A model generated the notes under the pieces. The model was not told where the DNA came from and made no database searches. It was given only the letters and a program-made list of their open reading frames with translations. Made by a program: the position numbers and the translations under genes. Of a DNA stretch of 64,000 bases, positions 4,073-40,767 are shown piece after piece. Within the stretch, counting starts at the first letter, position 1; each line of letters starts with the position of its first letter. Origin of the DNA: Halorientalis sp. IM1011 (lineage in GTDB: Archaea > Halobacteriota > Halobacteria > Halobacteriales > Haloarculaceae); the NCBI RefSeq assembly GCF_001989615.1, contig NZ_CP019067.1, positions 1,798,001 through 1,862,000 of the forward strand, read 5' to 3'.

Positions 4073-4792
4073 TTACAGACCGCTCTCCCCCGCGTTCGCC
4101 GCCGACGCCGACAGGGAACCGAGTCGCTCCAGTGCCGTCCAGACCGTCCACCCCGAGAGGACGACGGCCCCGACCACCTGCGGCGCGAGCGACCCCGGCG
4201 CGTACACCACCGGCCCCTCCAGCCCCGTCGCGAGCAACGCGACCCCCCACAGCGTCCAGACCCCCACGTGGACCGCCGCCAGCCACAGCGTTACTCGCCC
4301 GCGCCGAGGGTCCTCGGTTCTCAGCCCGTAGACGACGAACGCGACCGTGAACGAGACGAAGTACAGTACCCCACCGACGACGTGAAGTCGCTGCCCCTTC
4401 CGGAACAGTCCGACCATATTGAGGCCGTTCATCGACGCCGCGAGGAAGACGACCGCGAGCCGCTCGTATCGGTTCCCGTCGACGAGCAAGGCGACCCCGA
4501 ACGGGAGCGCGGCCAGCCCCGTCCCGATCATCGCGTAGTTGAACACCGTCGCCGCCGGCCCCTGACCCGCCCCGAGATCCGACAGCGTGTGCTGGACGAC
4601 CGAAAACGACGGCGAGAGCGCTATCGCGACCGCGATTCCGCCCAGCGCGATCGTCGGCGCGGCGACGCCGGAGACTCGACCCACGGTTGCCAGCCACCGC
4701 GCGTCCAGTCGCGCAAGTCCGTGTCCCCTGAGGACTTGCGTGCCAGCGGCGAGTGCGAGTACCACGACGGCCCCGGTCACCGGATCCACCAT
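4073..4792 (-). CDS. DUF998-type membrane protein within the atp operon
   Basis: 239 residues with six to seven hydrophobic segments: near the N-terminus, GVAAPTIALGGIAVAIALS, the AMIGTGLAALPFGVALLV region, LHVVGGVLYFVSFTVAFVVYG, and two at the C-terminus. The SFSVVQHTLSDLGAG signature before the middle helices is characteristic of DUF998 integral membrane proteins of unknown function. It lies in the same orientation between atpB (96 bases upstream) and atpD (33 bases downstream), where the canonical operon has no such gene. A role in ATP synthase assembly is possible but unproven; it may be a passenger insertion. Confidence 0.82.
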   Translation of the reverse strand: MVDPVTGAVVVLALAAGTQVLRGHGLARLDARWLATVGRVSGVAAPTIALGGIAVAIALSPSFSVVQHTLSDLGAGQGPAATVFNYAMIGTGLAALPFGVALLVDGNRYERLAVVFLAASMNGLNMVGLFRKGQRLHVVGGVLYFVSFTVAFVVYGLRTEDPRRGRVTLWLAAVHVGVWTLWGVALLATGLEGPVVYAPGSLAPQVVGAVVLSGWTVWTALERLGSLSASAANAGESGL

Positions 4793-4888
4793 CGGTACCC
4801 AGTCACGTGGCCAGGGGCAAACCGTTTCGGGCGTGACGTGGGGTACTCATGACTCGTGACACCGGGACAGCGAAAGGAAAATGCGGTG

Positions 4889-6310
4889 TTACTCCTCGGC
4901 TTCGACGGCTTCGGCCGACTCGCCTTCGACGTAGTGCTCCTCGATGAGTTCCTCGTCGACGCGGTTGAGTTCCTCCTTGGGGAACATCGAGAGCAGTTCC
5001 CAGCCCAGGTCCAGCGTCTCCTCGAGGTCGCGGTTCGTCTCGAAGCCCTGCTGGACGAACTCCTCCTCGAAGCGGTCGGCGAAGTCCAGGTAGAGGTTGT
5101 CCCGCTCGGAGAGGGCCTCGCGGCCGACGATGTTCACGAGGTCGCGCAGGTCCTCACCTTCTGCGTAGGCGGCGTACATCTGGTTCGAGATGTCGCCGTG
5201 GTCCTCGCGGGTCAGGCCCTCGCCGATACCGTCGTCCATCAGCCGCGAGAGGCTGGGCAGGACGTTGACCGGCGGTTCGATACCCTGACTGTTGAGGTCA
5301 CGGTCGACGTAGATCTGCCCCTCCGTGATGTAGCCCGTCAGGTCCGGGATCGGGTGGGTGTCGTCGTCGCCGGGCATCGTCAGGATCGGGATCTGCGTGA
5401 CAGAGCCCTCGTTGCCCTCGATCCGGCCGGCCCGCTCGTAGAGCTGGGCCAGGTCCGTGTACATGTACCCGGGGTAGCCACGGCGGCCCGGGACCTCCTC
5501 CCGTGCGGCACCGATCTCGCGCAGCGCCTCACAGTAGTTGGTCATGTCCGTCAGGATGACGAGGACGTGATACCCCTTGTCGAAGGCCAGATACTCGGCC
5601 GTCGTGAGGGCCAGTCGCGGCGTGACCGTCCGCTCGACTGCGGGGTCGTCCGCGAGGTTCATGAAGACGACCGAGCGTTCCAGCGCGCCGGTGCGCTCGA
5701 AGTCGTCCATGAACTCGTTGGCCTCCTCCTGGGTGATCCCCATCGCGCCGAAGATCACTGCGAACTCCGACCCTTCGTCGTCGTCGCCCTCCTCCTCTTC
5801 CGGCACGGTCGCCTGCCGGGCGATCTGGAGCGCGAGGTCGCTGTGGGGCAGCCCCGACGCCGAGAAGATGGGGAGCTTCTGGCCCCGGACCAGCGTGTTC
5901 ATGCCGTCGATGGCGGAGACGCCGGTCTGGATGAACTCCTCGGGGTACTCCCGGGAGTAGGGGTTGATCGCCTCGCCGACGATCGGTCGTTCCTCGTCCG
6001 GTTCGATCTCGGGGCCGCCGTCGATGGGCTCACCGGTCCCGCTCAGGACGCGCCCGAGCAGGTCCTCGGTGAGCTTCATCTGCATGGTCTCGCCGAGGAA
6101 CCGGACCGACGAGTTCCGGTCGATCCCTTCGGTTCCCTCGAACACCTGGATCGCGACGAACTCGCTCGTCGATTCGAGTACCTGTCCGCGGCGAGTCTCG
6201 CCCTCGGGTGTCTCGATCTCGACGATCTCGTCGTACCCGACGGGTTCGTCGACTTCGGCGAACACCAGCGGACCGCTGATCTCCGTGATGGTCTGGTATT
6301 CTTTCTGCAT
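4889..6310 (-). CDS. atpB: A-type ATP synthase subunit B
   Basis: 473 residues. This is the regulatory, non-catalytic subunit of the A3B3 head. It begins [20 protein letters not shown] and carries the family features ATP-synthase beta-barrel, [19 protein letters not shown], and an ATP-synthase signature region around [14 protein letters not shown]. The canonical Walker A Gly-Lys-Thr is absent, as expected for subunit B. Start: the frame extends 21 residues upstream, but ATG 6310 overlaps the last base of the atpA stop (TAATG), implying coupled translation. Length matches archaeal AtpB. Confidence 0.95.
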
Positions 6311-29742: not shown

Positions 29743-30435
29743 TCATCCGTCCGTCCTTCCGTGACCGATCCCGGCGTTCGTGTCTTCGGACAACGCGTCC
29801 TCGAAATCGTCGCGTTCACAGATCATCAACAGGGCGTCTTTCTCGGCCTCCTCGAAGTAGAACTCGTGGTGAGCCTCGAAACCGAACTGCTTCAGCAGGT
29901 GGATGACGACGTCGTTGTCGACGTCGGGTTCGCCCACGATCCGGTTCGTCTCGGGGTGTGAGAACATCATGCGGGCTATAGCGCGGAAGAGCGCCTTCGC
30001 GTAGCCGTTGCCGACGTACTCCGGGGGGCCGACGAGCAGGTGTCCGGCCCGGTCGCCCGGTTCGGCGTCGTAGTACGCATCGAGTTCGTACTCGGCCGGC
30101 CAGTACAGCTCCCAGTAACTCATCGGGACGTGGTCGATGTAGCCCACGTACGGTGTCAGGTGCTCCTCCGCGAGTTTCCCGGCGAGGTGGTCCCGAAACG
30201 CCGGCAACGGGAGATCGAGGTTCCAGAACTCCGCCACGTGGTCGTAGCCGAGCCAGGCGTGCAATCTGCCGAGATCACGGTCCATCGTCGCCGGGCGAAC
30301 GGAGACGGTCCGCTCTATCGCCCGGTCGTACCGCTGGAACGCGTAGTTCGACCTGATCGTCGCGTCCGGGCCGAGAGTGGGCGTCCCCTCGGACCTGGCC
30401 TCCGTCGGGTCCTGTATCTCGTCCGTCGGTGTCAT
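29743..30435 (-). CDS. Stand-alone IucB-like siderophore acyltransferase
   Basis: 230 residues, a GNAT-fold acyltransferase of the AlcB/IucB/RhbD type. VRPATMDRDLGRLHAWLGYDH, FWNLDLPLPAFRDHLAGKLAEEHLTPYVG and the acetyl-CoA-binding LLVGPPEYVGNGYAKALFRA are clear. It is a paralogue of the gene at 36925-37557, which shares YDSRIDRT-type, LPAFRD and DALLMIC segments. A DtxR/IdeR-like palindrome at 30512-30533 lies between its TATA (TTATTATG on the minus strand, 30533-30540) and the expected transcription start, so iron should repress it directly. It may acylate the same N-hydroxy-diamine or give a second acyl variant. Confidence 0.85.
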   Translation of the reverse strand: MTPTDEIQDPTEARSEGTPTLGPDATIRSNYAFQRYDRAIERTVSVRPATMDRDLGRLHAWLGYDHVAEFWNLDLPLPAFRDHLAGKLAEEHLTPYVGYIDHVPMSYWELYWPAEYELDAYYDAEPGDRAGHLLVGPPEYVGNGYAKALFRAIARMMFSHPETNRIVGEPDVDNDVVIHLLKQFGFEAHHEFYFEEAEKDALLMICERDDFEDALSEDTNAGIGHGRTDG

Positions 30436-30511
30436 CTGTCTCCCCCGAGAACGGCCAACGGGGCGGCGATCAGTCGGCCGACCGCCCGATACGTTCGTTC
30501 GGTTGTCATCA

Positions 30512-30533
30512 TGTTTTAGGCCGACCTAAAACA
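30512..30533. promoter_or_regulatory. Iron-box palindrome 1 (DtxR/IdeR type)
   Basis: A 22-bp inverted repeat with one mismatch, core TTTTAGGCCGACCTAAAA. It lies in the divergent region between the IucB-like gene and the amidase, next to ACATAATAAG, which can serve as a TATA on either strand. The half-site TTAGG...CCTAA matches the classical DtxR/IdeR operator half-site (established for bacterial iron repressors; haloarchaeal DtxR homologues are the likely readers). Confidence 0.82.
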
Positions 30534-30671
30534 TAATAAGGGTGTCGTCCCGTGCGTGAATTACCGAATGCCAGTGGGCCCTTCGCAGTACGACGGAACC
30601 GCACTGCCGGACGCATCGACCGATTTCAACGAACGGGCGACCGACGAGGTCGCCACAGCGAAGCCCCAGTC

Positions 30672-32150
30672 ATGGACGTAGCGTACGCGTCCGCGTCGGA
30701 TATCGCGGCGGCGGTTCGTCGCGGGGACCGTTCGCCGGTCGCGGTCGTCGACGCGGTGCTGGACCGGATCGAGCGCCGAAACGACAGGCTGAACGCCTAC
30801 GCCGAGGTCGCGGCCGACGCGGCCCGGGAGCGGGCGGCCGACATCGAGCGAGCGATCGACGACGGCCGTCCGGTCGGTCCGCTCGCCGGGGTTCCCGTGG
30901 CGCTGAAGGAGTCCGCCGCCTCGAAGGCAGGCCTACTGCGAACGATGGGATCGGTCCCCTTTCGTGACACCGTTTCCCGGACAGATTCGACCGTCGTCAC
31001 CCGACTGGAAGCAGCGGGGGCGGTGATCGTGGGGACGACCAACACGCCGGAACTGGATCACAAGGCGACGACCGACAACCCGCTCCGTGGCCCGACCCGG
31101 AACCCGTTCGATCTCTCGCGGAACGCCGGCGGTTCCTCCGGGGGCAGCGCCGCGGCGGTCGCCGACGGACTCGCACCCGTGGCACACGGGAAGGACGCCG
31201 GTGGATCGCTCCGCATCCCCGCGGCGTGGTCCGGCGTGTACGCGTTCAAACCGACGTTTCGACGCGTCCCGGACGTGACGCGACCGGACGGGTTCGCCGA
31301 CGAACTCGGGATCCGGTCCACGCACGGGCCGATCACGCGGAGCGTTCGCGACGCCGCGCTCGTGCTCGACGTGATCGGGGGCCACCATCCCCGGGACCCG
31401 TCGAGCCTGCCGGACGGGCCGGCGTCCTATCGGGCCGCCGTCGAACGCCCGATCGACGATCTCACCGTCGCCTACACCCCGGATTACGGAACCTTTCCGG
31501 TCGACCGCGAACTCCAAGAGACGGTCGAGGACGCCGTCGAGGCGTTCGGTGACGCGGGGGCCACGGTCGAACCGGTCGAGGTTCAGATCGGATACACCCA
31601 CGCGGAACTGACAGACGCCTGGACGACGCTCGTGGGTGCGAATCTCGCGGCGATGAACGAGTGGCTCGCACGACACGACGACGTCGATCTGCTCCGGGAC
31701 CACCGCGAGGAGATGACCGACAGTCTCGTCGCCCTGCTGGAGTCCGGAACGCGCACCACGGCGACGGAGTACCTCCACCACCACGTGGTCCGAACGGCGG
31801 TTCACGACGCTATCGAGGACGTCTTCGAGGAGTACGATTTGCTCGTCTCGCCGACGGTCTGTCATCCCCCCGTCGAGAACGCGACGGAGGGGTCGACGCT
31901 CGGTCCGGCCGAGATCGACGGCGAACCGGTCGACCCGCGAATCGGCTGGTGCCCCACCTTCCTGCTCAACTTCACCGGCCACCCGGCCGCGTCGGTCCCG
32001 GCAGGAACCGTCGGTGAGGGGCTTCCGGTCGGGCTGCAGATCGCCGGTCCCCGGTTCGCGGACACGCAGGTCATCGCCGCCAGCGCCGCGTTCGAGCGCG
32101 TCCGACCGTGGGCCGATCGATATCGCACTGAGACGGCCGCCAGAATTTAG
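30672..32150 (+). CDS. Amidase-signature family hydrolase in the siderophore locus
   Basis: 492 residues from ATG 30672. The Ser-cisSer-Lys triad is visible: Lys in GVPVALKES (~residue 78), the cis-Ser in NAGGSSGGSAA (~155) and the nucleophile in GKDAGGSLRIPAA (~178). Such enzymes hydrolyse amide bonds. The promoter region carries iron-box 1, and iron-box 2 overlaps its stop codon, placing it in the same iron-starvation regulon as the siderophore operon. Possible roles are cleavage of the imported hydroxamate siderophore to free iron or trimming of a precursor (inference). The frame extends upstream to 30552, but that region lies on the leader and lacks similarity. Confidence 0.85.
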   Translation: MDVAYASASDIAAAVRRGDRSPVAVVDAVLDRIERRNDRLNAYAEVAADAARERAADIERAIDDGRPVGPLAGVPVALKESAASKAGLLRTMGSVPFRDTVSRTDSTVVTRLEAAGAVIVGTTNTPELDHKATTDNPLRGPTRNPFDLSRNAGGSSGGSAAAVADGLAPVAHGKDAGGSLRIPAAWSGVYAFKPTFRRVPDVTRPDGFADELGIRSTHGPITRSVRDAALVLDVIGGHHPRDPSSLPDGPASYRAAVERPIDDLTVAYTPDYGTFPVDRELQETVEDAVEAFGDAGATVEPVEVQIGYTHAELTDAWTTLVGANLAAMNEWLARHDDVDLLRDHREEMTDSLVALLESGTRTTATEYLHHHVVRTAVHDAIEDVFEEYDLLVSPTVCHPPVENATEGSTLGPAEIDGEPVDPRIGWCPTFLLNFTGHPAASVPAGTVGEGLPVGLQIAGPRFADTQVIAASAAFERVRPWADRYRTETAARI

Positions 32151-32161
32151 GCCGGCCTAAA
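32146..32161. promoter_or_regulatory. Iron-box palindrome 2
   Basis: TTTAGGCCGGCCTAAA is a perfect 16-bp palindrome overlapping the amidase stop codon (TAG 32148-32150). It ends ten bases before the TATA box of the siderophore operon, where a bound repressor would cover the TFB-recognition (BRE) side. Confidence 0.85.
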
Positions 32162-32170
32162 ACCCGCCAG

Positions 32171-32179
32171 CTTTATGGT
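32171..32179 (+). promoter_or_regulatory. TATA box of the siderophore operon
   Basis: CTTTATGGT sits between iron-boxes 2 and 3. Transcription should begin near 32198-32204, directly after iron-box 3. Confidence 0.65.
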
Positions 32180-32181
32180 GG

Positions 32182-32197
32182 TTTAGGCTAGCCTAAA
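32182..32197. promoter_or_regulatory. Iron-box palindrome 3
   Basis: TTTAGGCTAGCCTAAA is a perfect 16-bp palindrome between the TATA box and the expected transcription start, the classical place for repression by steric block. It differs from box 2 only in the two central pairs. Confidence 0.85.
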
Positions 32198-32203
32198 ATC
32201 CGC

Positions 32204-32272
32204 ATGCAGCTGGAAAAATTAAACCGATCGCGAACAGGTTCGGCGGACGGCGTACGGGGTGGTTCGCCGTGA
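32204..32272 (+). CDS. Possible 22-residue leader peptide before dat
   Basis: ATG 32204, the first ATG after the predicted transcription start, opens a 22-codon frame (MQLEKLNRSRTGSADGVRGG then SP). Its TGA 32270-32272 overlaps the GTG start of dat as GTGA. The geometry mirrors the ATGA/GTGA overlaps between the operon's real genes, so the small frame may deliver ribosomes to the GTG start. No family is known, and it may be chance. Confidence 0.35.
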   Translation: MQLEKLNRSRTGSADGVRGGSP

Positions 32273-33639
32273 CGTATCTGGAGCACGGAAACGGGGCGAT
32301 CCTCTCTCAGCAGGCGCGTCGGGAGTCGAACGCGCGCACGTATCCGCGCTATCTGCCGCTGGCCATCCGCGAGGCGGAGGGGATCACGGTGACCGACATG
32401 GACGGGAACGAGTACTACGACTGTCTCGCGGGGGCGGGAACGCTCGCGCTGGGGCACAATCATCCGCGCGTGGTCGAGGCCATGGAGGATGCGCTGGAGG
32501 CCTCCCGTCCGATACACACGCTCGACATCTCGACGCCCGCGAAAGAGCGGTTCGTCGACTCGCTGTTCGCGAGCCTGCCCGACGAGTTCAGCGACCGGGC
32601 GAAGATACAGTTCTGCAGTCCGGCGGGGACCGACGCCGTCGAAGCCGCGCTCAAACTCGTCAAGACGGCCACCGGGAACCGGAGCATCCTCGGCTTTCAG
32701 GGCGCTTACCACGGCATGACGAGCGGGTCGCTCGCCCTGATGGGTGATACCGAGGCCAAAGCGCCGCTCCCGGGGTTGATGGACGACGTACATCACCTCC
32801 CGTATCCCTACGACTACCGGTGTCCGTTCGGCGTCGGCGGCGAGCGAGGTCACGAGATCGCGAGCGACTACGTCGAGAACCTGCTCGACGACGACGAAGG
32901 GGGGATCACCGAGCCCGCCGGATTGATCCTCGAACCGGTACAGGGCGAAGGCGGGGCGATTCCCGCCCCGGATCCGTGGCTCCGCGAGATCCGCCGGATC
33001 ACGCGCGAGCGCGAGATTCCGTTGATCCTCGACGAGATTCAGGCGGGGCTCGGCCGAACCGGCGAACGCTACGCCTTCGAACACGCCGGGATAACGCCCG
33101 ACGTCCTCACGCTCTCGAAGGCGATCGGCGGTGGGCTCCCGCTGTCGGTCGTCGTCTACGACGAGTCGCTCGACGCCTGGGAGCCGGGTGCCCACGCCGG
33201 AACCTTCCGCGGGAACCAGCTCGCGATGGTGGCCGGCGAGGCGACGATCGACTACGTCCTCGAACACGACCTCGACGACCACGCCGCCGAGGTCGGCGCT
33301 CGGCTGCGCGACCACCTCGACGCGACGGGGGAGCGGATCGACGCCGTGGGCGACGTCCGGGGTCGCGGGCTGATGCTCGGCGTCGAGTTCGTCGATCCCG
33401 ATGCCGACTGGCAGGGGGCCGGGCCACACGCCCCGGACGGCGAGTTCGCCGAGGCCGTCCAGGCCGAGTGTTTCGACCGCGGTCTCATAATCGAACTCGG
33501 CGGACGTGCGAGCGCCACCGCACGGTTCCTGCCCCCGCTGACCGTGACGGCGACCCAGATCGACGAGATCGCCGCGATCTTCGCCGAGGCCGTCGCCGCG
33601 GTCGCCGCCGAGGAGAACCCGACCGAGGTGGCCGCATGA
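32269..33639 (+). CDS. dat: Diaminobutyrate-2-oxoglutarate aminotransferase
   Basis: 456 residues, class III PLP aminotransferase. Evidence: DGNEYYDCLAGAGTLALGHNHP, the cofactor Lys in TLSKAIGGGLPLS (~283), LILDEIQAGLGRTG before it, and GDTEAKAPLPGLMDDVHHLPYP, which is typical of DABA aminotransferases (RhbA/Dat). It converts aspartate-semialdehyde to L-2,4-diaminobutyrate, the precursor of 1,3-diaminopropane. Start at GTG 32269; no ATG in this frame fits. It is first in the six-gene operon and its stop overlaps ddc (ATGA). Confidence 0.92.
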   Translation: MTYLEHGNGAILSQQARRESNARTYPRYLPLAIREAEGITVTDMDGNEYYDCLAGAGTLALGHNHPRVVEAMEDALEASRPIHTLDISTPAKERFVDSLFASLPDEFSDRAKIQFCSPAGTDAVEAALKLVKTATGNRSILGFQGAYHGMTSGSLALMGDTEAKAPLPGLMDDVHHLPYPYDYRCPFGVGGERGHEIASDYVENLLDDDEGGITEPAGLILEPVQGEGGAIPAPDPWLREIRRITREREIPLILDEIQAGLGRTGERYAFEHAGITPDVLTLSKAIGGGLPLSVVVYDESLDAWEPGAHAGTFRGNQLAMVAGEATIDYVLEHDLDDHAAEVGARLRDHLDATGERIDAVGDVRGRGLMLGVEFVDPDADWQGAGPHAPDGEFAEAVQAECFDRGLIIELGGRASATARFLPPLTVTATQIDEIAAIFAEAVAAVAAEENPTEVAA

Positions 33640-35123
33640 GCGCCGACGAGCTGTTCCTTGGCTCGGCCGCCGGGAACGCCACCTACCGGGAGGCACTGGA
33701 CCGTGCGGCCGACGCCGTCGTCGAGCAGTTCGCCGCCGCCGACCGCCCGTACTCCGGCGAACGCCCGGAGGCCCTCGCCGCCCGGCTGGAGCAACCGGTA
33801 CTCCCCGAGTCGGGGATCGGTCTCCGGGCCGCGATCGACGAGGTGGCGTCCGAGATCCTCCCGCACTCGGTCGGTACCTCGAACCCGCGGTGTGCGGCGC
33901 ACCTCCAGTGCCCGCCGATGATCCCGGGACTCGCCGCGGAAGCGCTGCTCACCGCGACGAACCAGTCGCTGGACTCCTTCGATCAGGCACCGGCCGCGAC
34001 CGTCCTCGAAGGGCGGGTCGTCGACGCGCTCTGTGACCTGTTCGGCTATCCCGACGCGGCCGACGGCGTCTTCACGAGCGGCGGCACGCAGTCGAACTTC
34101 CAGGCACTCCTGCTCGCGCGCGACCGCCACTGTCAGGAGACGTTCGGCACGGACGTGCAGGCGAGCGGCCTCCCGGTCGAGGCGGGGTCGCTGCGCGTCC
34201 TCTGCTCGGAGGCCGCCCACTTCACCGCCAAGCAGGCGGCCCACCACCTCGGTCTCGGGGAGGACGCCGTCGTCACCGTGGAGACGGACGACCGCCGCAG
34301 GCTCGATCCGGCCGCACTCGACGCGAGGCTCGACGCACTCGAAGCGGCGGGGGCCGAGCCGTTCGCGCTCGTCGGGACGGCCGGCACCACCGACTTCGGG
34401 AGCATCGATCCGCTCCCCGCGCTCGCGGACCGCGCGGCCGAACACGACCTCTGGTTCCACGTCGACGCGGCCTACGGCGGCGCGCTCGCGCTGACGGACG
34501 ACCACGCGGCCGAACTCGAAGGGGTAGACCGGGCCGACTCGGTGGCCGTCGACTTCCACAAGCTGTTTTACCAGCCGATCAGCTGCGGGGCGCTGTTGCT
34601 CCGTGACGGGGGTGATTTCGAGTGGATGGCGCGCAACGCGGCGTATCTCAACCCGGCGGCCCACGACGAGACCGGCGTGCCGAACCTCGTCTCGAAGTCG
34701 GTCCAGACGACGCGCCGCTTCGACGCGCTGAAACCGTACGTCGCGTTCCGCGCCGTCGGCCGCGACCGACTGGGCGACCTCGTCGCCGGGACGCTCGACC
34801 TCGCGGCCGAGACGGCCGCCCTGCTCGAAGCGGCCGACGACTTCGAGCTAGTGACCGATCCGACGCTGAACGCCGTCGTCTTCCGCTACCGTCCGGAGGG
34901 CGGCATGGCCGACGAGCGCGTGGACGCGCTGAACGCCGCGGTCCGACGGCGGGTCCTCGAAGACGGCCGGGCCGTCGTCGCCCGGACCGAGGTCGACGGC
35001 GTCACCAGCCTGAAGGTCACGCTGTTGAACCCGACCGCCACGCTCGACGACGTGGCCGCCATGCTCGACGTCGTCCGGGACTGCGGGGCGGACCTGCGGG
35101 ACGGACCGGAGGTGTCGGCATGA
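33636..35123 (+). CDS. ddc: L-2,4-diaminobutyrate decarboxylase
   Basis: 495 residues, group II PLP decarboxylase. Landmarks: HLQCPPMIPGLAAEALL, TSGGTQSNFQALLLARD, HFTAKQAAHHLGLG, WFHVDAAYGGALALT and the cofactor Lys in VAVDFHKLFYQP (~309). RhbB-type enzymes decarboxylate 2,4-diaminobutyrate to 1,3-diaminopropane, the backbone amine of schizokinen-type siderophores. The frame is open far upstream inside dat, but ATG 33636 overlapping the dat stop is the natural start. It overlaps the next gene by ATGA. Confidence 0.92.
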   Translation: MSADELFLGSAAGNATYREALDRAADAVVEQFAAADRPYSGERPEALAARLEQPVLPESGIGLRAAIDEVASEILPHSVGTSNPRCAAHLQCPPMIPGLAAEALLTATNQSLDSFDQAPAATVLEGRVVDALCDLFGYPDAADGVFTSGGTQSNFQALLLARDRHCQETFGTDVQASGLPVEAGSLRVLCSEAAHFTAKQAAHHLGLGEDAVVTVETDDRRRLDPAALDARLDALEAAGAEPFALVGTAGTTDFGSIDPLPALADRAAEHDLWFHVDAAYGGALALTDDHAAELEGVDRADSVAVDFHKLFYQPISCGALLLRDGGDFEWMARNAAYLNPAAHDETGVPNLVSKSVQTTRRFDALKPYVAFRAVGRDRLGDLVAGTLDLAAETAALLEAADDFELVTDPTLNAVVFRYRPEGGMADERVDALNAAVRRRVLEDGRAVVARTEVDGVTSLKVTLLNPTATLDDVAAMLDVVRDCGADLRDGPEVSA

Positions 35124-36928
35124 GTCTCGCACCCGAACACCGGTCGTCGAGCGCCGTCGATCCCGCCCAGCGGGCCGACGAGGCGACCCTCCACGCGTTC
35201 CTCAACTGCTATCTCCGGGAGACCGGCGAGTACGAGCGCCACGCGGAGTCGATCTCCGGCGTCGACCCGGGTCCCGACGGCCTCCTCCGGACGCGACTGC
35301 CAGCCCAGGGGATCGCCGTTCTGGCGCCTCTGGAGTACTACTCGCCGACGGAACGGCACCTGTTCGAGACGCCGGTGCGGTATCGGCTCCCCGACGGCCA
35401 GGTTCGGCCGCTCGATGCGGCCACGCTGGCGTCGCTCGTGGTGAAAGACCTCTCGCTCTCGCGGAACGGGCAGTCCGTCCCGGACCGGTTGCTGGAACGC
35501 GTCCTCCGGAGCAAGCACAACGTCGAGTCGTTCGTCGCGGCCCGCGTCGGCGCGGACGCCACGGTCGACGACCGGTCGTTCCGGGCGGCCGAGCAGTCGC
35601 TCGTGTTCGGCCATCACCGCCATCCCACCCCGAAGAGCCGGCGGGGCATCGCCGACAGGGATCGGGCGACCTACGCGCCCGAACTCGGGGGGTCCTTCCC
35701 GCTGCACTACGTCCGCGCGTCGCCGGCCCTCGTCTCGACCGGGTCGGCGCTCGAATCGGACGCCGCGACGTGGATCGGCGACGCGCTCCGTGCCGATCCC
35801 GAGGTACCCACGTCGTTCGTCGACGAGCACGTCGAGAGCGACGACGTGCTGTTGCCGGTCCACCCGTGGCAGGCCGACTACCTCCGGGAGCAGCCCCACG
35901 TCCGGCGACACCTCGACGACGGCATCGAGTTCCTCGGCGCAGTCGGCCGGGAGTTCCACCCGACCACGTCGGTCCGGACGCTCTATTGCCCGGACGCGCC
36001 GTTCATGGTGAAGTCGTCGTTGAACGTCACCATCACCAACTCCGTGCGGACGAACAAACGTCCCGAACTCGAACGGGGCGTGGCCGTCGCGGAACTGCTC
36101 GACACGGCCTTCGGCGACGAACTCGCCGCGGCGTTCCCGGACTTCGACGTGGTTCGGGACCCGGCCTACGTCTCGCTGGACGTGGGCGACGACCCGGAGT
36201 CGGGGCTGGAGACCGTCCTCAGGGCCAACCCGTTCCGCGGGGACCTGGCCGAGCGGTCGACACCGCTGGTCGCGCTCTGTCAGGACGCGATCGAGGGGGA
36301 TTCCCGCCTCGGCCGACTCGTCAGGGAGATCGCCGACCGGGAGGGCCGATCCACCGCGGCCGTCAGCGAGGACTGGTTCGAGCGGTACCTCGAAATCGCG
36401 ATCCGGCCGGTGCTGTGGCTCTACCTCGAACAGGGTGTGGGGGTGGAAGCTCACCAGCAGAACTCGGTCCTCACCCTCGACCCGGACGGCTACCCGGGCG
36501 AGTTCCGCTACCGGGACAATCAGGGGTTTTACTTCCCAGAATCGCAGTACGGCGCCGTCGCCGACTACCTGCCCGGCGTCGGCGAGCGGGCCGAGACCGT
36601 CTGCGCCGACGCCGTCGCCGACGAGCGCCTCCGGTACTACGTCGTCCTGAACAACGCGATCGACCTCGTCAACGCCTTCGGGAGCGCCGGCCTCGTCGAC
36701 GAGCGGCGACTGTTGAGACTGCTGCGGGCGGAACTCGAACGCGCTCGCGACCGCTACGACCGCCCCTCCTCGACGCTGCTCGACCCGCTGCTCGAGTCCA
36801 CGACGGTTCCCTGCAAGGCGAACCTCCTCACGCGCTTTCGCGGACTCGACGAACTGGAGAACGACCTGGAGAACCAGTCCGTCTACACGGACGTGAAGAA
36901 CCCTCTCGTTACCGAACTCGACACATGA
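35120..36928 (+). CDS. iucA: IucA/IucC-family siderophore synthetase (first)
   Basis: 602 residues. NRPS-independent siderophore (NIS) synthetase: LLPVHPWQADYLREQPHVRRH, TSVRTLYCPDAPFMVKSSLN and VTITNSVRTNKRPELERG form the ATP/citrate-binding core. VEAHQQNSVLTLDPDG with RDNQGFYF follow in the C-terminal FhuF-like part. It should adenylate citrate and join it to N-acetyl-N-hydroxy-1,3-diaminopropane. Overlaps at both ends (ATGA) fix the start at 35120. Which half of the citrate it handles cannot be read directly. Confidence 0.92.
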   Translation: MSLAPEHRSSSAVDPAQRADEATLHAFLNCYLRETGEYERHAESISGVDPGPDGLLRTRLPAQGIAVLAPLEYYSPTERHLFETPVRYRLPDGQVRPLDAATLASLVVKDLSLSRNGQSVPDRLLERVLRSKHNVESFVAARVGADATVDDRSFRAAEQSLVFGHHRHPTPKSRRGIADRDRATYAPELGGSFPLHYVRASPALVSTGSALESDAATWIGDALRADPEVPTSFVDEHVESDDVLLPVHPWQADYLREQPHVRRHLDDGIEFLGAVGREFHPTTSVRTLYCPDAPFMVKSSLNVTITNSVRTNKRPELERGVAVAELLDTAFGDELAAAFPDFDVVRDPAYVSLDVGDDPESGLETVLRANPFRGDLAERSTPLVALCQDAIEGDSRLGRLVREIADREGRSTAAVSEDWFERYLEIAIRPVLWLYLEQGVGVEAHQQNSVLTLDPDGYPGEFRYRDNQGFYFPESQYGAVADYLPGVGERAETVCADAVADERLRYYVVLNNAIDLVNAFGSAGLVDERRLLRLLRAELERARDRYDRPSSTLLDPLLESTTVPCKANLLTRFRGLDELENDLENQSVYTDVKNPLVTELDT

Positions 36929-37557
36929 CCGGACCGGACGCTACCATCGCGACCAACTACGACTACCAGACGTACGACAGCCGCATCGACCGGACGATAT
37001 CGCTCCGCCGTGCCACGATGGAGCGCGACCTCGGTCGACTCCATACCTGGCTCGGGAGCGACCACGTCAAGCCGTACTGGCAACTCGACCTCCCGTTGCC
37101 GGCGTTTCGCGACCAGTTCGCCGCGAAACTCGCGGACGAGCACCTGACACCGTACGTCGGCTGTCTGGACCACGTCCCCGCGAGTTACTGGGAGTGCTAC
37201 TGGGCGGCCGAGGACGACGTGGCGAACCACTACGACGCCGACCCTGCCGACCAGGGCCTGCACCTGCTCGTCGGCCCGACGGAGTTCCTCGGACAGGGCT
37301 ACGCCGTCCCGCTGTTGCAGGCCGTCGTCGCCATGCAGTTTCGCCACGCCGACACCGACCGCGTGATCGCGGAACCGGACGCGCGAAACGAGCGCGCCAT
37401 CGGCGTCTTCGAGCAGTGCGGCTTCGAACCGCGCGCGGAGTTCCACTTCCCGGAAGCCGGGAAGGACGCCCTGTTGATGATCTGTGACCGCGACGAGTTC
37501 GAGTCGCCCGCCGACCCGACGGCCGCGGACTCCCCGGAGGTGCCTGGTGATGACTGA
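36925..37557 (+). CDS. iucB: N-hydroxy-diamine acetyltransferase (IucB/RhbD type)
   Basis: 210 residues from ATG 36925. GNAT-fold siderophore acyltransferase: LRRATMERDLGRLHTWLGSDH, LPAFRDQFAAKLADEHLTPYVG, LLVGPTEFLGQGYAVPLLQA and KDALLMICDRDEF. It should acetylate the hydroxylated amine to make the hydroxamate iron ligand. It resembles the separate gene at 29743-30435, implying a duplication. Overlaps: four bases with iucA, eight bases with iucD. Confidence 0.9.
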   Translation: MTGPDATIATNYDYQTYDSRIDRTISLRRATMERDLGRLHTWLGSDHVKPYWQLDLPLPAFRDQFAAKLADEHLTPYVGCLDHVPASYWECYWAAEDDVANHYDADPADQGLHLLVGPTEFLGQGYAVPLLQAVVAMQFRHADTDRVIAEPDARNERAIGVFEQCGFEPRAEFHFPEAGKDALLMICDRDEFESPADPTAADSPEVPGDD

Positions 37558-38926
37558 CGACGAGGTCCACGACGTAGTCGGCGTCGGCCTCGGACCGTTC
37601 AACCTCGGTCTCGCGGCCATGCTGGACGGGGTGGAGGAGGCCGTCGACGCCGTCTTCCTCGAACGCGAACCGGAGTTCAACTGGCACGAGGGAATGTTGC
37701 TGGCGGGAACGACGATGGAGGTCCCCTTCCTGGCCGACCTCGTGACGCTCGCGGATCCCACGAACCCCCACAGCTACCTCAACTACCTGCGAGAGACCGA
37801 CCGGCTCTACGAGTTCTACTTCTACGAGACCTTCCAGCCACCTCGCCGGGAGTACAACGACTACCTCCGGTGGGTCGTCGAGACCCTGGAGACGCCCCGG
37901 TTCGACCGCGAGGTCGTCGCGGTTCGCTGGGACGAGAGCGAGGGGTGTTTCGTCGTCGACGCGCGGCACCCGGAGACCGGTGAGCGGTTTCGGTACCGCG
38001 GAGCCAACCTGGCGCTCGGCGTCGGCTCTCGACCGCAGATCCCCGAGCAGTTGCAGGGGCACCCCGAGGACGACGTCTTCCACACCGCGAACTACCGGTA
38101 CAACCGCGAGCGCGTGCTGGGGGCGGATTCGGTCACCGTCGTCGGGTCCGGGCAGAGCGCCGCCGAGGTGTTTCAGGACCTGCTCCAGCGCCAGTCCGAT
38201 CGGGACTACCGACTGGACTGGCTGACCCGGTCGGACGGGTTCTTCCCCATGGAGTACTCGAAACTCGGCCTCCAGCACTTCACGCCGGAATACGAGCAGT
38301 ACGTCTACGACCTCCCCCAGTCCGTCAAGGACGACCTCATCCCGGACCAGGACCTGCTGTACAAGGGGATCGATCCCGAGACGAGCGCCGAGATCTACGA
38401 CCTGCTCTACCGCCGCTCGGTCGGCGACCGCGACCCCGACGTGGGACTGTTCGCCATGACCGAGGTCCGGGACATCGACGCCGACGACGGGCGCTACACG
38501 CTCGACTGTCACCAGTGGCAGTCCGACGCGTCGTTCGCACACGAGTCCGAGGTCGTCATCCTCGGGACGGGATACGAACGGCCGATTCCGGGCTTTCTCG
38601 AACCGCTCGAAGACGCCATCGACTGGGACGAGCGGGGGCGGTTCGAGGTGACCGAGGACCACCGGCTGGCGATCGACGTACCGGGCGACGTGTTCCTCCA
38701 GAACGCCGAGTTCCACACGCACGGCGTCGGCGTCCCCGATCTCGGTCTCGGCTGCTACCGCAACACGAAGTTCGTCAACCGACTGCTCGGTCGAACGGTC
38801 TACCCCGAGGACAGCGACACCGTCTACCAGAACTTCTCGGTCGAGCAGTTCGTCGAACACGTACCGAACGCGTCCCGCGCAGGGGACGGCGAACCGACCA
38901 CGGAGCCGACTTCCTCCGACGACTGA
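37550..38926 (+). CDS. iucD: FAD-dependent diamine N-hydroxylase (IucD/RhbE type)
   Basis: 458 residues. Flavin N-monooxygenase: FAD motif GVGLGPFNLGLAAML (~11-25), FNWHEGMLLAGTTMEVPFL, LADPTNPHSYLNYLRE (substrate/FAD side), NADPH motif VVGSGQSAAEVFQDLL (~197), and the C-terminal ATG-like ILGTGYERPIP with NAEFHTHGVGVPDLGLG. It hydroxylates the terminal amine of 1,3-diaminopropane. Start at ATG 37550 overlaps the iucB stop by eight bases; the reading further upstream lies inside iucB. Confidence 0.92.
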   Translation: MTDDEVHDVVGVGLGPFNLGLAAMLDGVEEAVDAVFLEREPEFNWHEGMLLAGTTMEVPFLADLVTLADPTNPHSYLNYLRETDRLYEFYFYETFQPPRREYNDYLRWVVETLETPRFDREVVAVRWDESEGCFVVDARHPETGERFRYRGANLALGVGSRPQIPEQLQGHPEDDVFHTANYRYNRERVLGADSVTVVGSGQSAAEVFQDLLQRQSDRDYRLDWLTRSDGFFPMEYSKLGLQHFTPEYEQYVYDLPQSVKDDLIPDQDLLYKGIDPETSAEIYDLLYRRSVGDRDPDVGLFAMTEVRDIDADDGRYTLDCHQWQSDASFAHESEVVILGTGYERPIPGFLEPLEDAIDWDERGRFEVTEDHRLAIDVPGDVFLQNAEFHTHGVGVPDLGLGCYRNTKFVNRLLGRTVYPEDSDTVYQNFSVEQFVEHVPNASRAGDGEPTTEPTSSDD

Positions 38927-38928
38927 CG

Positions 38929-40767
38929 ATGGATCCGAACGATACGACACTACGTGACGCGCTGGACGCAGCGACCTGGGAGACCGTCGAACGCCGTCTC
39001 CTGACGAAGATGCTCGAGGAGTTCACTTACGAGGAGATACTCGCGCCGCGGAAGATAGACGCGGGCGACGACGCCGCGCTCTACCGGTTCGACCTCGGCG
39101 ACGCGAGCTACCGGTTCGAGGCCGAAGAGCGGCTACTGGACAGCCTGCACGTCGACGGCGACACCGTCGAGCGACGCACGGACGGGACGTGGACCGAGTT
39201 CGGCGACCCGCTGACCTTACTGGGGGACCTCGGCGACGCGACGGATCTCGACGGGCTCACCCAGGGGAACCTCGTCCGTGAGTACAAGCGGACGCTGCTC
39301 GCCGACGCACACATCGCGGCCCGCGACCGGGAACGGGAGGAGTTCGACCCGCTGGCGCTCGACTACGCCGAACTCGAAGGCGAGATGGACGGCCACCCCT
39401 GGATCACGTACAACAAGGGCCGTCTCGGGTGGGGCTACGACGACTACCGGCAGTACGCGCCCGAGCGAAAGACGCCGGTCCGGCTCTCGTGGGCGGCCGT
39501 CCGCAAGGAGAGGTCGACGTTCGTCGGGACGGAGGGCGTGAGCCACGACTCCCTCGTCCGGACCGAACTCGGCGACCACTACGGGCGGTTCCGCGATCGA
39601 CTCGACTCTCGGGGGCTGGACCCGGACGCCTACTACTTCCTGCCGGTCCACGACTGGCAGTGGGACAACAGCATCGTCCCGCTGTTCCCCGACCACATCG
39701 CCGCCGACGACATCGTCCCGCTCGGGGCGGGACCGGACGAGTACCTGCCACAGCAATCGGTCCGCACCTTCGTCAACGTCGATTCCGCGGCGAAACACCA
39801 CGTCAAGGTCCCCATGCGGATCCTCAACACTCTCGTCTGGCGCGGCCTCCCCGGTGAGCGAACGGAACTCGCACCGACCGTCACCGAGTACATCAAGGGG
39901 ATCTACGAGGACGACGACTTCCTCCAGGAGCAGGGAGTCGTCCTCCCGGGGGAGATCGCGGGCGTCAACTACGACCACTCGGACTTCACCGACATCGACG
40001 GCTCGCCCTACCAGTACCACGAACTGCTGGGCGCGGTCTGGCGGGAGTCGATACACACCTTCCTGGACGACGACGAGCGCGCGATAACGCTCTCGTCGCT
40101 GATGCACGTCGACGGCGACGGTGTGCCGTTCCTCTCGCGCCTCGTCGAACGGTCGGACCTGGCGCTGGACGAGTGGATCGGTGAGTTCTTCGAGACCGTC
40201 CTCCCGCCTCTGCTGCACTTCCTCTACCGCTACGGAACGGTGTTCTCGCCCCACGGCCAGAACACGATTCTGATCGTCGAAGACGGGGCTCCCGCCCGGG
40301 TTGCGGTCAAGGACTTCGTGGACGACGTGAACGTCAGCGACCAGCCCCTCCCGGAACTGCAGGCCCTCCCCGACGAGATGCACGACGTGCTCCGCAAGGA
40401 ACCGCCGGAGGGGCTCTGCCAGTTCGTCTTCTGTGGACTGTTCGTCTGCGTGCTGCGGTACGTCGCCGACGTGCTCGAAACACACGAGGACTACCCCGAG
40501 ACGACCTTCTGGACCCACGCACGCGAGACGGTGCTTGACTACCAGGCGCAGTTCCCCGAACTGGAGGATCGGTTCGAACTGTTCGACCTGCTCCAGCCGG
40601 AGTTCACGAAACTGAGCCTCAACAGGAACCGCATCTTCGAGTACGGCTACGACGACGCGCCCGGTCGGCCGCACGCGTCCGAGCACGGGACGGTGCCGAA
40701 CCCGCTCCACGAGGTCACCGAGACCGCCGCGAACGGGGCGACGCGGCCACATCTGGCCGACGACTGA
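38929..40767 (+). CDS. iucC: IucA/IucC-family siderophore synthetase (second)
   Basis: 612 residues. NIS synthetase with HPWITYNKGRLGWGYDDYRQ, YFLPVHDWQWDNSI, PQQSVRTFVNVDSAAKHHVKVPMRI and FSPHGQNTILIVED with VKDFVDDVNVS. The HP...KGR and HPxQ-like (HDWQWD) motifs are family hallmarks. As last gene of the operon it is the best candidate for the final condensation on the mono-substituted citrate, giving a dihydroxamate siderophore. It starts two bases after the iucD stop. A small hairpin GCCGC-ttc-GCGGC follows the stop and may aid termination. No exporter or uptake gene is in the operon. Confidence 0.92.
   Translation: MDPNDTTLRDALDAATWETVERRLLTKMLEEFTYEEILAPRKIDAGDDAALYRFDLGDASYRFEAEERLLDSLHVDGDTVERRTDGTWTEFGDPLTLLGDLGDATDLDGLTQGNLVREYKRTLLADAHIAARDREREEFDPLALDYAELEGEMDGHPWITYNKGRLGWGYDDYRQYAPERKTPVRLSWAAVRKERSTFVGTEGVSHDSLVRTELGDHYGRFRDRLDSRGLDPDAYYFLPVHDWQWDNSIVPLFPDHIAADDIVPLGAGPDEYLPQQSVRTFVNVDSAAKHHVKVPMRILNTLVWRGLPGERTELAPTVTEYIKGIYEDDDFLQEQGVVLPGEIAGVNYDHSDFTDIDGSPYQYHELLGAVWRESIHTFLDDDERAITLSSLMHVDGDGVPFLSRLVERSDLALDEWIGEFFETVLPPLLHFLYRYGTVFSPHGQNTILIVEDGAPARVAVKDFVDDVNVSDQPLPELQALPDEMHDVLRKEPPEGLCQFVFCGLFVCVLRYVADVLETHEDYPETTFWTHARETVLDYQAQFPELEDRFELFDLLQPEFTKLSLNRNRIFEYGYDDAPGRPHASEHGTVPNPLHEVTETAANGATRPHLADD

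Follow-up and report, generated by a model that had tools for sequence, protein, structure and literature searches.

The locus examined here carries a siderophore operon whose promoter is bracketed by palindromic boxes, with a further box before a nearby acetyltransferase gene, and raises the question of what controls these genes. We consider it probable (about 0.75) that the boxes are operators of the haloarchaeal DtxR-family (TroR-like) iron regulon, at which a repressor would occlude the promoter and behind which a short leader ORF would be coupled to dat, the first siderophore gene. The window, meaning the whole 64-kb stretch of DNA that was analyzed, encodes the complete gene set of a schizokinen-type hydroxamate/citrate NIS cluster as judged by Pfam and NCBIfam (dat, decarboxylase, IucD-like, IucB-like, and two IucA/IucC proteins), and the genes of the operon are mostly joined by start-stop overlaps (Table 1). 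The stand-alone iucB-like gene is absent from every other genome of the genus at E≤1e-30. The amidase gene was considered as a member of the siderophore operon and rejected, as its stop codon (TAG, 32148–32150) falls within box 2, an overlap that the first-pass annotation of this DNA did not mention. A 37-codon ORF (from 30568) overlaps the start of the amidase gene.

Table 1. Positions of boxes, promoter elements, genes, and candidate regulators. Plain ranges joined by two dots are window coordinates; the remaining positions are those of contigs or of individual loci (L numbers).
Feature	Position	Strand	Remark
Box 1, 22-bp near-palindrome TGTTTTAGGCCGACCTAAAACA	30512..30533		core 30515-30530; between TATA and leader ORF of iucB-like gene
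Box 2, perfect 16-bp palindrome TTTAGGCCGGCCTAAA	32146..32161		upstream of dat-operon TATA
Box 3, perfect 16-bp palindrome TTTAGGCTAGCCTAAA	32182..32197		between TATA and first start codon
TATA-like TTTATG, dat operon	32172..32177	+	between boxes 2 and 3; from sequence
TATA-like CATAATAA on + (TTATTATG on -), iucB-like transcript	30532..30539	-	inferred position; from sequence
Leader ORF 1, peptide MMTTERTYRAVGRLIAAPLAVLGGDR then stop	30432..30512	-	ATG 2 nt past box 1; stop overlaps ATGA start of iucB-like gene; single genome
Leader ORF 2, peptide MQLEKLNRSRTGSADGVRGGSP then stop	32204..32272	+	ATG 6 nt past box 3; stop TGA overlaps GTGA start of dat
Stand-alone IucB-like GNAT acetyltransferase (Acetyltransf_8)	29743..30435	-	59% identity to IucB of operon
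Amidase gene (signature-family amidase)	30672..32150	+	candidate link to regulon
dat, diaminobutyrate--2-oxoglutarate aminotransferase	32269..33639	+	NF005393 and TIGR00709 above cut-off
PLP-dependent (diaminobutyrate) decarboxylase, RhbB-like	33636..35123	+	under NCBIfam equivalog cut-off
IucA/IucC-family NIS synthetase (IucA-type)	35120..36928	+	Pfam/NCBIfam
IucB-like acetyltransferase	36925..37557	+	Pfam/NCBIfam
IucD-like N-monooxygenase	37550..38926	+	Pfam/NCBIfam
Second IucA/IucC-family NIS synthetase (IucC)	38929..40767	+	Pfam/NCBIfam
Box before Fe3+-type ABC binding protein	C1:3337005		≤1 mismatch
Box before FecCD permease	C1:3342092		≤1 mismatch
Box before siderophore-type binding protein	C1:3343247		≤1 mismatch
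Box before ABC ATPase adjoining FecCD permease/binding-protein genes	C1:3341121		2 mismatches
Box before DUF7551/7552 gene	689959		≤1 mismatch
Box before Amphi-Trp gene	1544689		≤1 mismatch
Box before 56-aa small ORF	3348645		≤1 mismatch
Box ~115 nt ahead of DUF7553-like gene	2737465		≤1 mismatch
Weaker motif copy before ZIP transporter	1574203
Weaker motif copy before sufC	637290
suf-linked DtxR-family candidate repressor	C1:631470-631907		~1.7 kb from sufD, downstream of small acidic ORF
Canonical DtxR/MntR/SirR-like protein (L024)	contig C3, 62469		beside GDT1-type divalent-cation antiporter
~55-aa NTDGWIA.D protein	L017:3669-3839	+	also L116, L138, L240
Amphi-Trp gene with own perfect box	L018 ~4690-5014
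DUF7551/7552 gene	L019:4960		also L129, L131
DpsA-like gene	L017 ~4520	-

The three palindromes reported by the first-pass annotation are all present, and its placement of the TATA-like elements relative to them is correct and conserved across related genomes. Box 1 is palindromic at 20 of its 22 positions and lies immediately downstream of the TATA-like element of the minus-strand iucB-like gene, while boxes 2 and 3 flank TTTATG, with 36 bp from the start of one box to that of the other. DtxR/IdeR operators consist of TTAGG and CCTAA half-sites separated by 4 bp, and the boxes have this very arrangement (TTAGG-n4-CCTAA), as had been proposed. That annotation had one iron repressor closing three promoters; there are three boxes, but two promoters, those of the iucB-like gene and the dat operon, and a single repressor for both is putative. 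Within the window, no site other than these three boxes comes within one mismatch of TTTAGGCNNGCCTAAA, and 0.19 matches would be expected by chance even when three mismatches are allowed.

The motif was located across the 3.78-Mb genome (three contigs) by pattern searches, with the reversed pattern as a control. At most one mismatch from TTTAGGCNNGCCTAAA, ten sites were found as compared to none for the control. All ten are positioned in front of genes, and three are the boxes of the window, serving siderophore biosynthesis at two promoters. Clear iron-uptake or siderophore targets account for six of the ten, or seven sites when the two-mismatch site before an ABC ATPase gene is included. The first-pass annotation had treated its boxes as a single motif and called for a genome-wide scan, in which absence of the motif from other iron-related promoters would have counted against it; the scan placed the motif before iron ABC transport genes, and it marks iron-uptake promoters throughout the genome. 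Among 58 genomes searched, this one included, 55 contain the motif, with control counts of 0–1. At most regulon targets the box lies between the TATA element and the first codon, the latter being 0–16 nt past the box, and this position around the TATA and transcription start region is maintained in related genomes. Several boxes precede genes without a known role in iron metabolism (DUF7551/7552, Amphi-Trp, and the DUF7553-like gene), as might be expected if the palindromes were chance occurrences or sites of an unrelated regulator, but the genome-wide counts against the control, the promoter position, and the iron-related targets make such an origin extremely improbable.

Some of these targets have features of their own. 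A small protein of ~55 amino acids with a conserved NTDGWIA.D sequence is box-controlled as judged by position, has no match in Pfam, and in three relatives has a stop codon that abuts or overlaps an Amphi-Trp gene; in the present genome, the Amphi-Trp gene bears its own perfect box. The start codon of the DUF7551/7552 gene abuts the box or is 1 nt away from it in this genome and two relatives, and the gene is a possible member of the iron regulon. Close to the iron-transport island, a diverged palindrome, TTTCGGCTTGCCGAAA, precedes a gene that by eye is DpsA-like.

We compared 52 dat loci, namely 22 haloarchaeal loci (L032–L053), 29 further ones, and the window; these include the near-duplicate pairs L037/L195 and L049/L215. 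A box precedes dat in 44 of them (43 and the window) and is lacking in eight. The arrangement of two boxes with the TATA element in between is found in many haloarchaeal genera, with a spacing of 34–37 bp in most boxed loci and a 53-bp spacing or a single box in a minority. This double-box pattern occurs once in the present genome. In Natronococcus jeotgali, genes for a FecCD-type permease and a binding protein adjoin the siderophore operon in divergent orientation, each behind a box of its own.

Two full DtxR-family proteins are encoded in the genome, and the one linked to the suf genes is most likely the regulator of the boxes, as judged from sequence. It has PF01325 (N-terminal DNA-binding) and PF02742 (metal-binding/dimerization) matches above cut-off. 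A search of 146 genomes of the order (E≤1e-25) detected it in 138, a count that takes in a few matches to a paralogous subfamily (43–52% identity). Its linkage to suf suggests that it is the orthologue of TroR. However, most of the canonical DtxR/MntR metal ligands are missing from this protein: in the alignment, H76, H95, E99, and H103 (ScaR numbering), which we take to be metal ligands, are replaced by Y, R, K, and P. The term DtxR/IdeR-type iron repressor thus describes family and site resemblance rather than mechanism. Four cysteines, at 77, 121, 124, and 132, do not vary among the 31 closest sequences in the comparison, and the last of the four is missing from a distant sequence (L191). 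The paralogous subfamily (L175–L187), which is not found in the present genome at E≤1e-25, has canonical-looking metal ligands together with the cysteines (CPxC...C motif). Inspection of the weaker PF01325 matches (L026–L031) showed Lrp/AsnC-like, CTP-riboflavin-kinase-like, or other HTH proteins, and these were set aside.

The second DtxR-family protein, on contig C3, could bind the same operators in response to Mn or Fe, and belongs to the same family as the suf-linked protein. It possesses N-terminal, metal-binding, and FeoA domains, matches IdeR and MntR structures strongly, and has canonical-looking ligands. Its gene, however, adjoins that of a GDT1-type antiporter, suggesting control of Mn, whereas the suf-linked cysteine-type protein is near-universal, like the motif. 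Boxes are also less numerous in genomes without the suf-linked protein (Mann-Whitney p 1e-4), a difference that genome size and completeness confound. We thus regard the contig C3 protein as a rather unlikely binder, and favor the suf-linked one.

Both promoters of the window are followed by leader ORFs, which the first-pass annotation overlooked. In all 44 boxed dat loci, a start codon occurs 4–8 nt past the promoter-proximal box. The ORF that begins there reaches the dat start in 42 of the 44, overlapping it in 38 and ending 2 nt short of it in four, and is fused in frame to dat in the other two. These numbers comprise 34 loci in which an ATG-initiated ORF runs over a start codon in frame with dat, and eight that were added once GTG starts and a CTG start of dat were allowed (four overlapping, and four ending two bases before the ATG of dat); homology served to assign the dat start. 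The leader ORFs are 16–35 codons in length, and those that start with ATG come in nine different lengths while keeping their frame relation to dat. The overlap of stop and start in an NTGA sequence is that of a termination-reinitiation coupled pair. The encoded peptides differ between genera and are mostly basic, and their low GC3 (0.55) makes them unlike normal haloarchaeal proteins.

Such an ORF could be a by-product, with leaderless initiation favoring a 5'-terminal ATG and with chance or weak start calls accounting for the overlap with dat. The lack of conservation of the peptides between genera, their low GC3, and the dependence of the dat start on homology are in keeping with this. Chance would, however, have to produce a single frame relation from nine lengths along with the near-constant contact with the dat start. 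A dinucleotide-shuffle null gives a rough ~0.2 per locus, and its product over 20 representatives is ~3e-15, likewise rough and ignoring shared ancestry. The layout is also rare elsewhere in the regulon. Among 39 classifiable other boxes in the order, 35 lead straight into a gene and four into a short ORF, which in three cases is the conserved 55-amino acid small protein; other regulon boxes usually stand directly before a leaderless gene. A by-product is, in our estimation, distinctly unlikely, and a leader that is functionally joined to dat is preferred.

We found no description of a leader ORF before dat in the literature searched, which does not in itself prove novelty; the siderophore leader gene is apparently undescribed so far. 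Termination-reinitiation is known in haloarchaea (PMC6728339). A survey of uORFs in Haloferax volcanii covered 5'-UTR leaders of 150–250 nt only (PMC4983044), and so the siderophore leader ORF would have escaped it. The uORFs of that survey are likewise short (15–31 amino acids) and located ahead of normal-sized genes, but they encode acidic peptides within those 150–250-nt leaders, whereas the siderophore leader is shorter, encodes mostly basic peptides, and overlaps the start of the gene.

We propose the following mechanism, in which the identity of the repressor, the response to iron, the transcription start site, and the translation and coupling of the leader are all predicted from sequence. 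With sufficient iron, a repressor dimer would occupy the box between the TATA element and the first start codon, covering the transcription start site, and at the dat operon a second dimer would bind on the far side of the TATA element. Dimers so placed around the TATA element would block TBP, TFB, and RNA polymerase. When iron is short, the repressor would leave and the siderophore genes would be transcribed. The dat transcript would most likely begin at the leader ORF as a leaderless mRNA, and ribosomes terminating at the leader stop, which abuts or overlaps the start of dat, would then reinitiate on that gene, rendering siderophore synthesis translationally coupled to the leader. A fuller form of two-level control, in which the DtxR-family repressor senses iron or Fe-S status through a four-cysteine site and the leaderless micro-ORF is obligatory and a possible control point, is conceivable but tentative.

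The described haloarchaeal DtxR-family regulons (Idr1 and Idr2 in Halobacterium salinarum; Idr, SirR, and TroR in H. volcanii) likewise combine regulators of this family, iron-uptake targets, and a conserved upstream motif. In the TroR study, the motif is reportedly ~100 nt upstream of the start codons of iron genes; the likeness of the TroR regulon to the boxes here is one of general description. Bacterial DtxR/IdeR systems share the half-sites, the 4-bp spacer, and the DtxR-family fold, but the box here is a 16-bp palindrome with TTTAGGC arms, as compared to the 19-bp IdeR box, and the candidate repressor differs in its replaced ligands. According to two reports, the orthologous six-gene cluster of H. 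volcanii is iron-regulated and transcribed as one hexacistronic mRNA with internal coupling through 4-nt overlaps (PMC7407949, PMC11349517). That schizokinen cluster (dat-bdb-iucABDC) has the same six kinds of genes, and the part of its description available mentions neither an operator nor a leader ORF (PMC7407949). The dat loci of Haloferax have one box, whereas the window has two. Simple co-regulation is not always seen, as in the H. volcanii proteome IucC went down and IucA up under iron starvation (PMC11349517).

The siderophore promoters of this locus thus appear to add one more case to the haloarchaeal DtxR/TroR iron regulon already known, with a conserved leader ORF and an unusual candidate repressor as predicted additions. 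An archaeal siderophore operon is thereby linked to an iron operator that recurs across the genome and whose promoter geometry can be tested. The conserved cysteines of a near-universal haloarchaeal DtxR-family protein suggest a sensing chemistry other than that of DtxR and IdeR, and the conserved leaderless leader ORF may offer a simple system for translation coupling in archaea.
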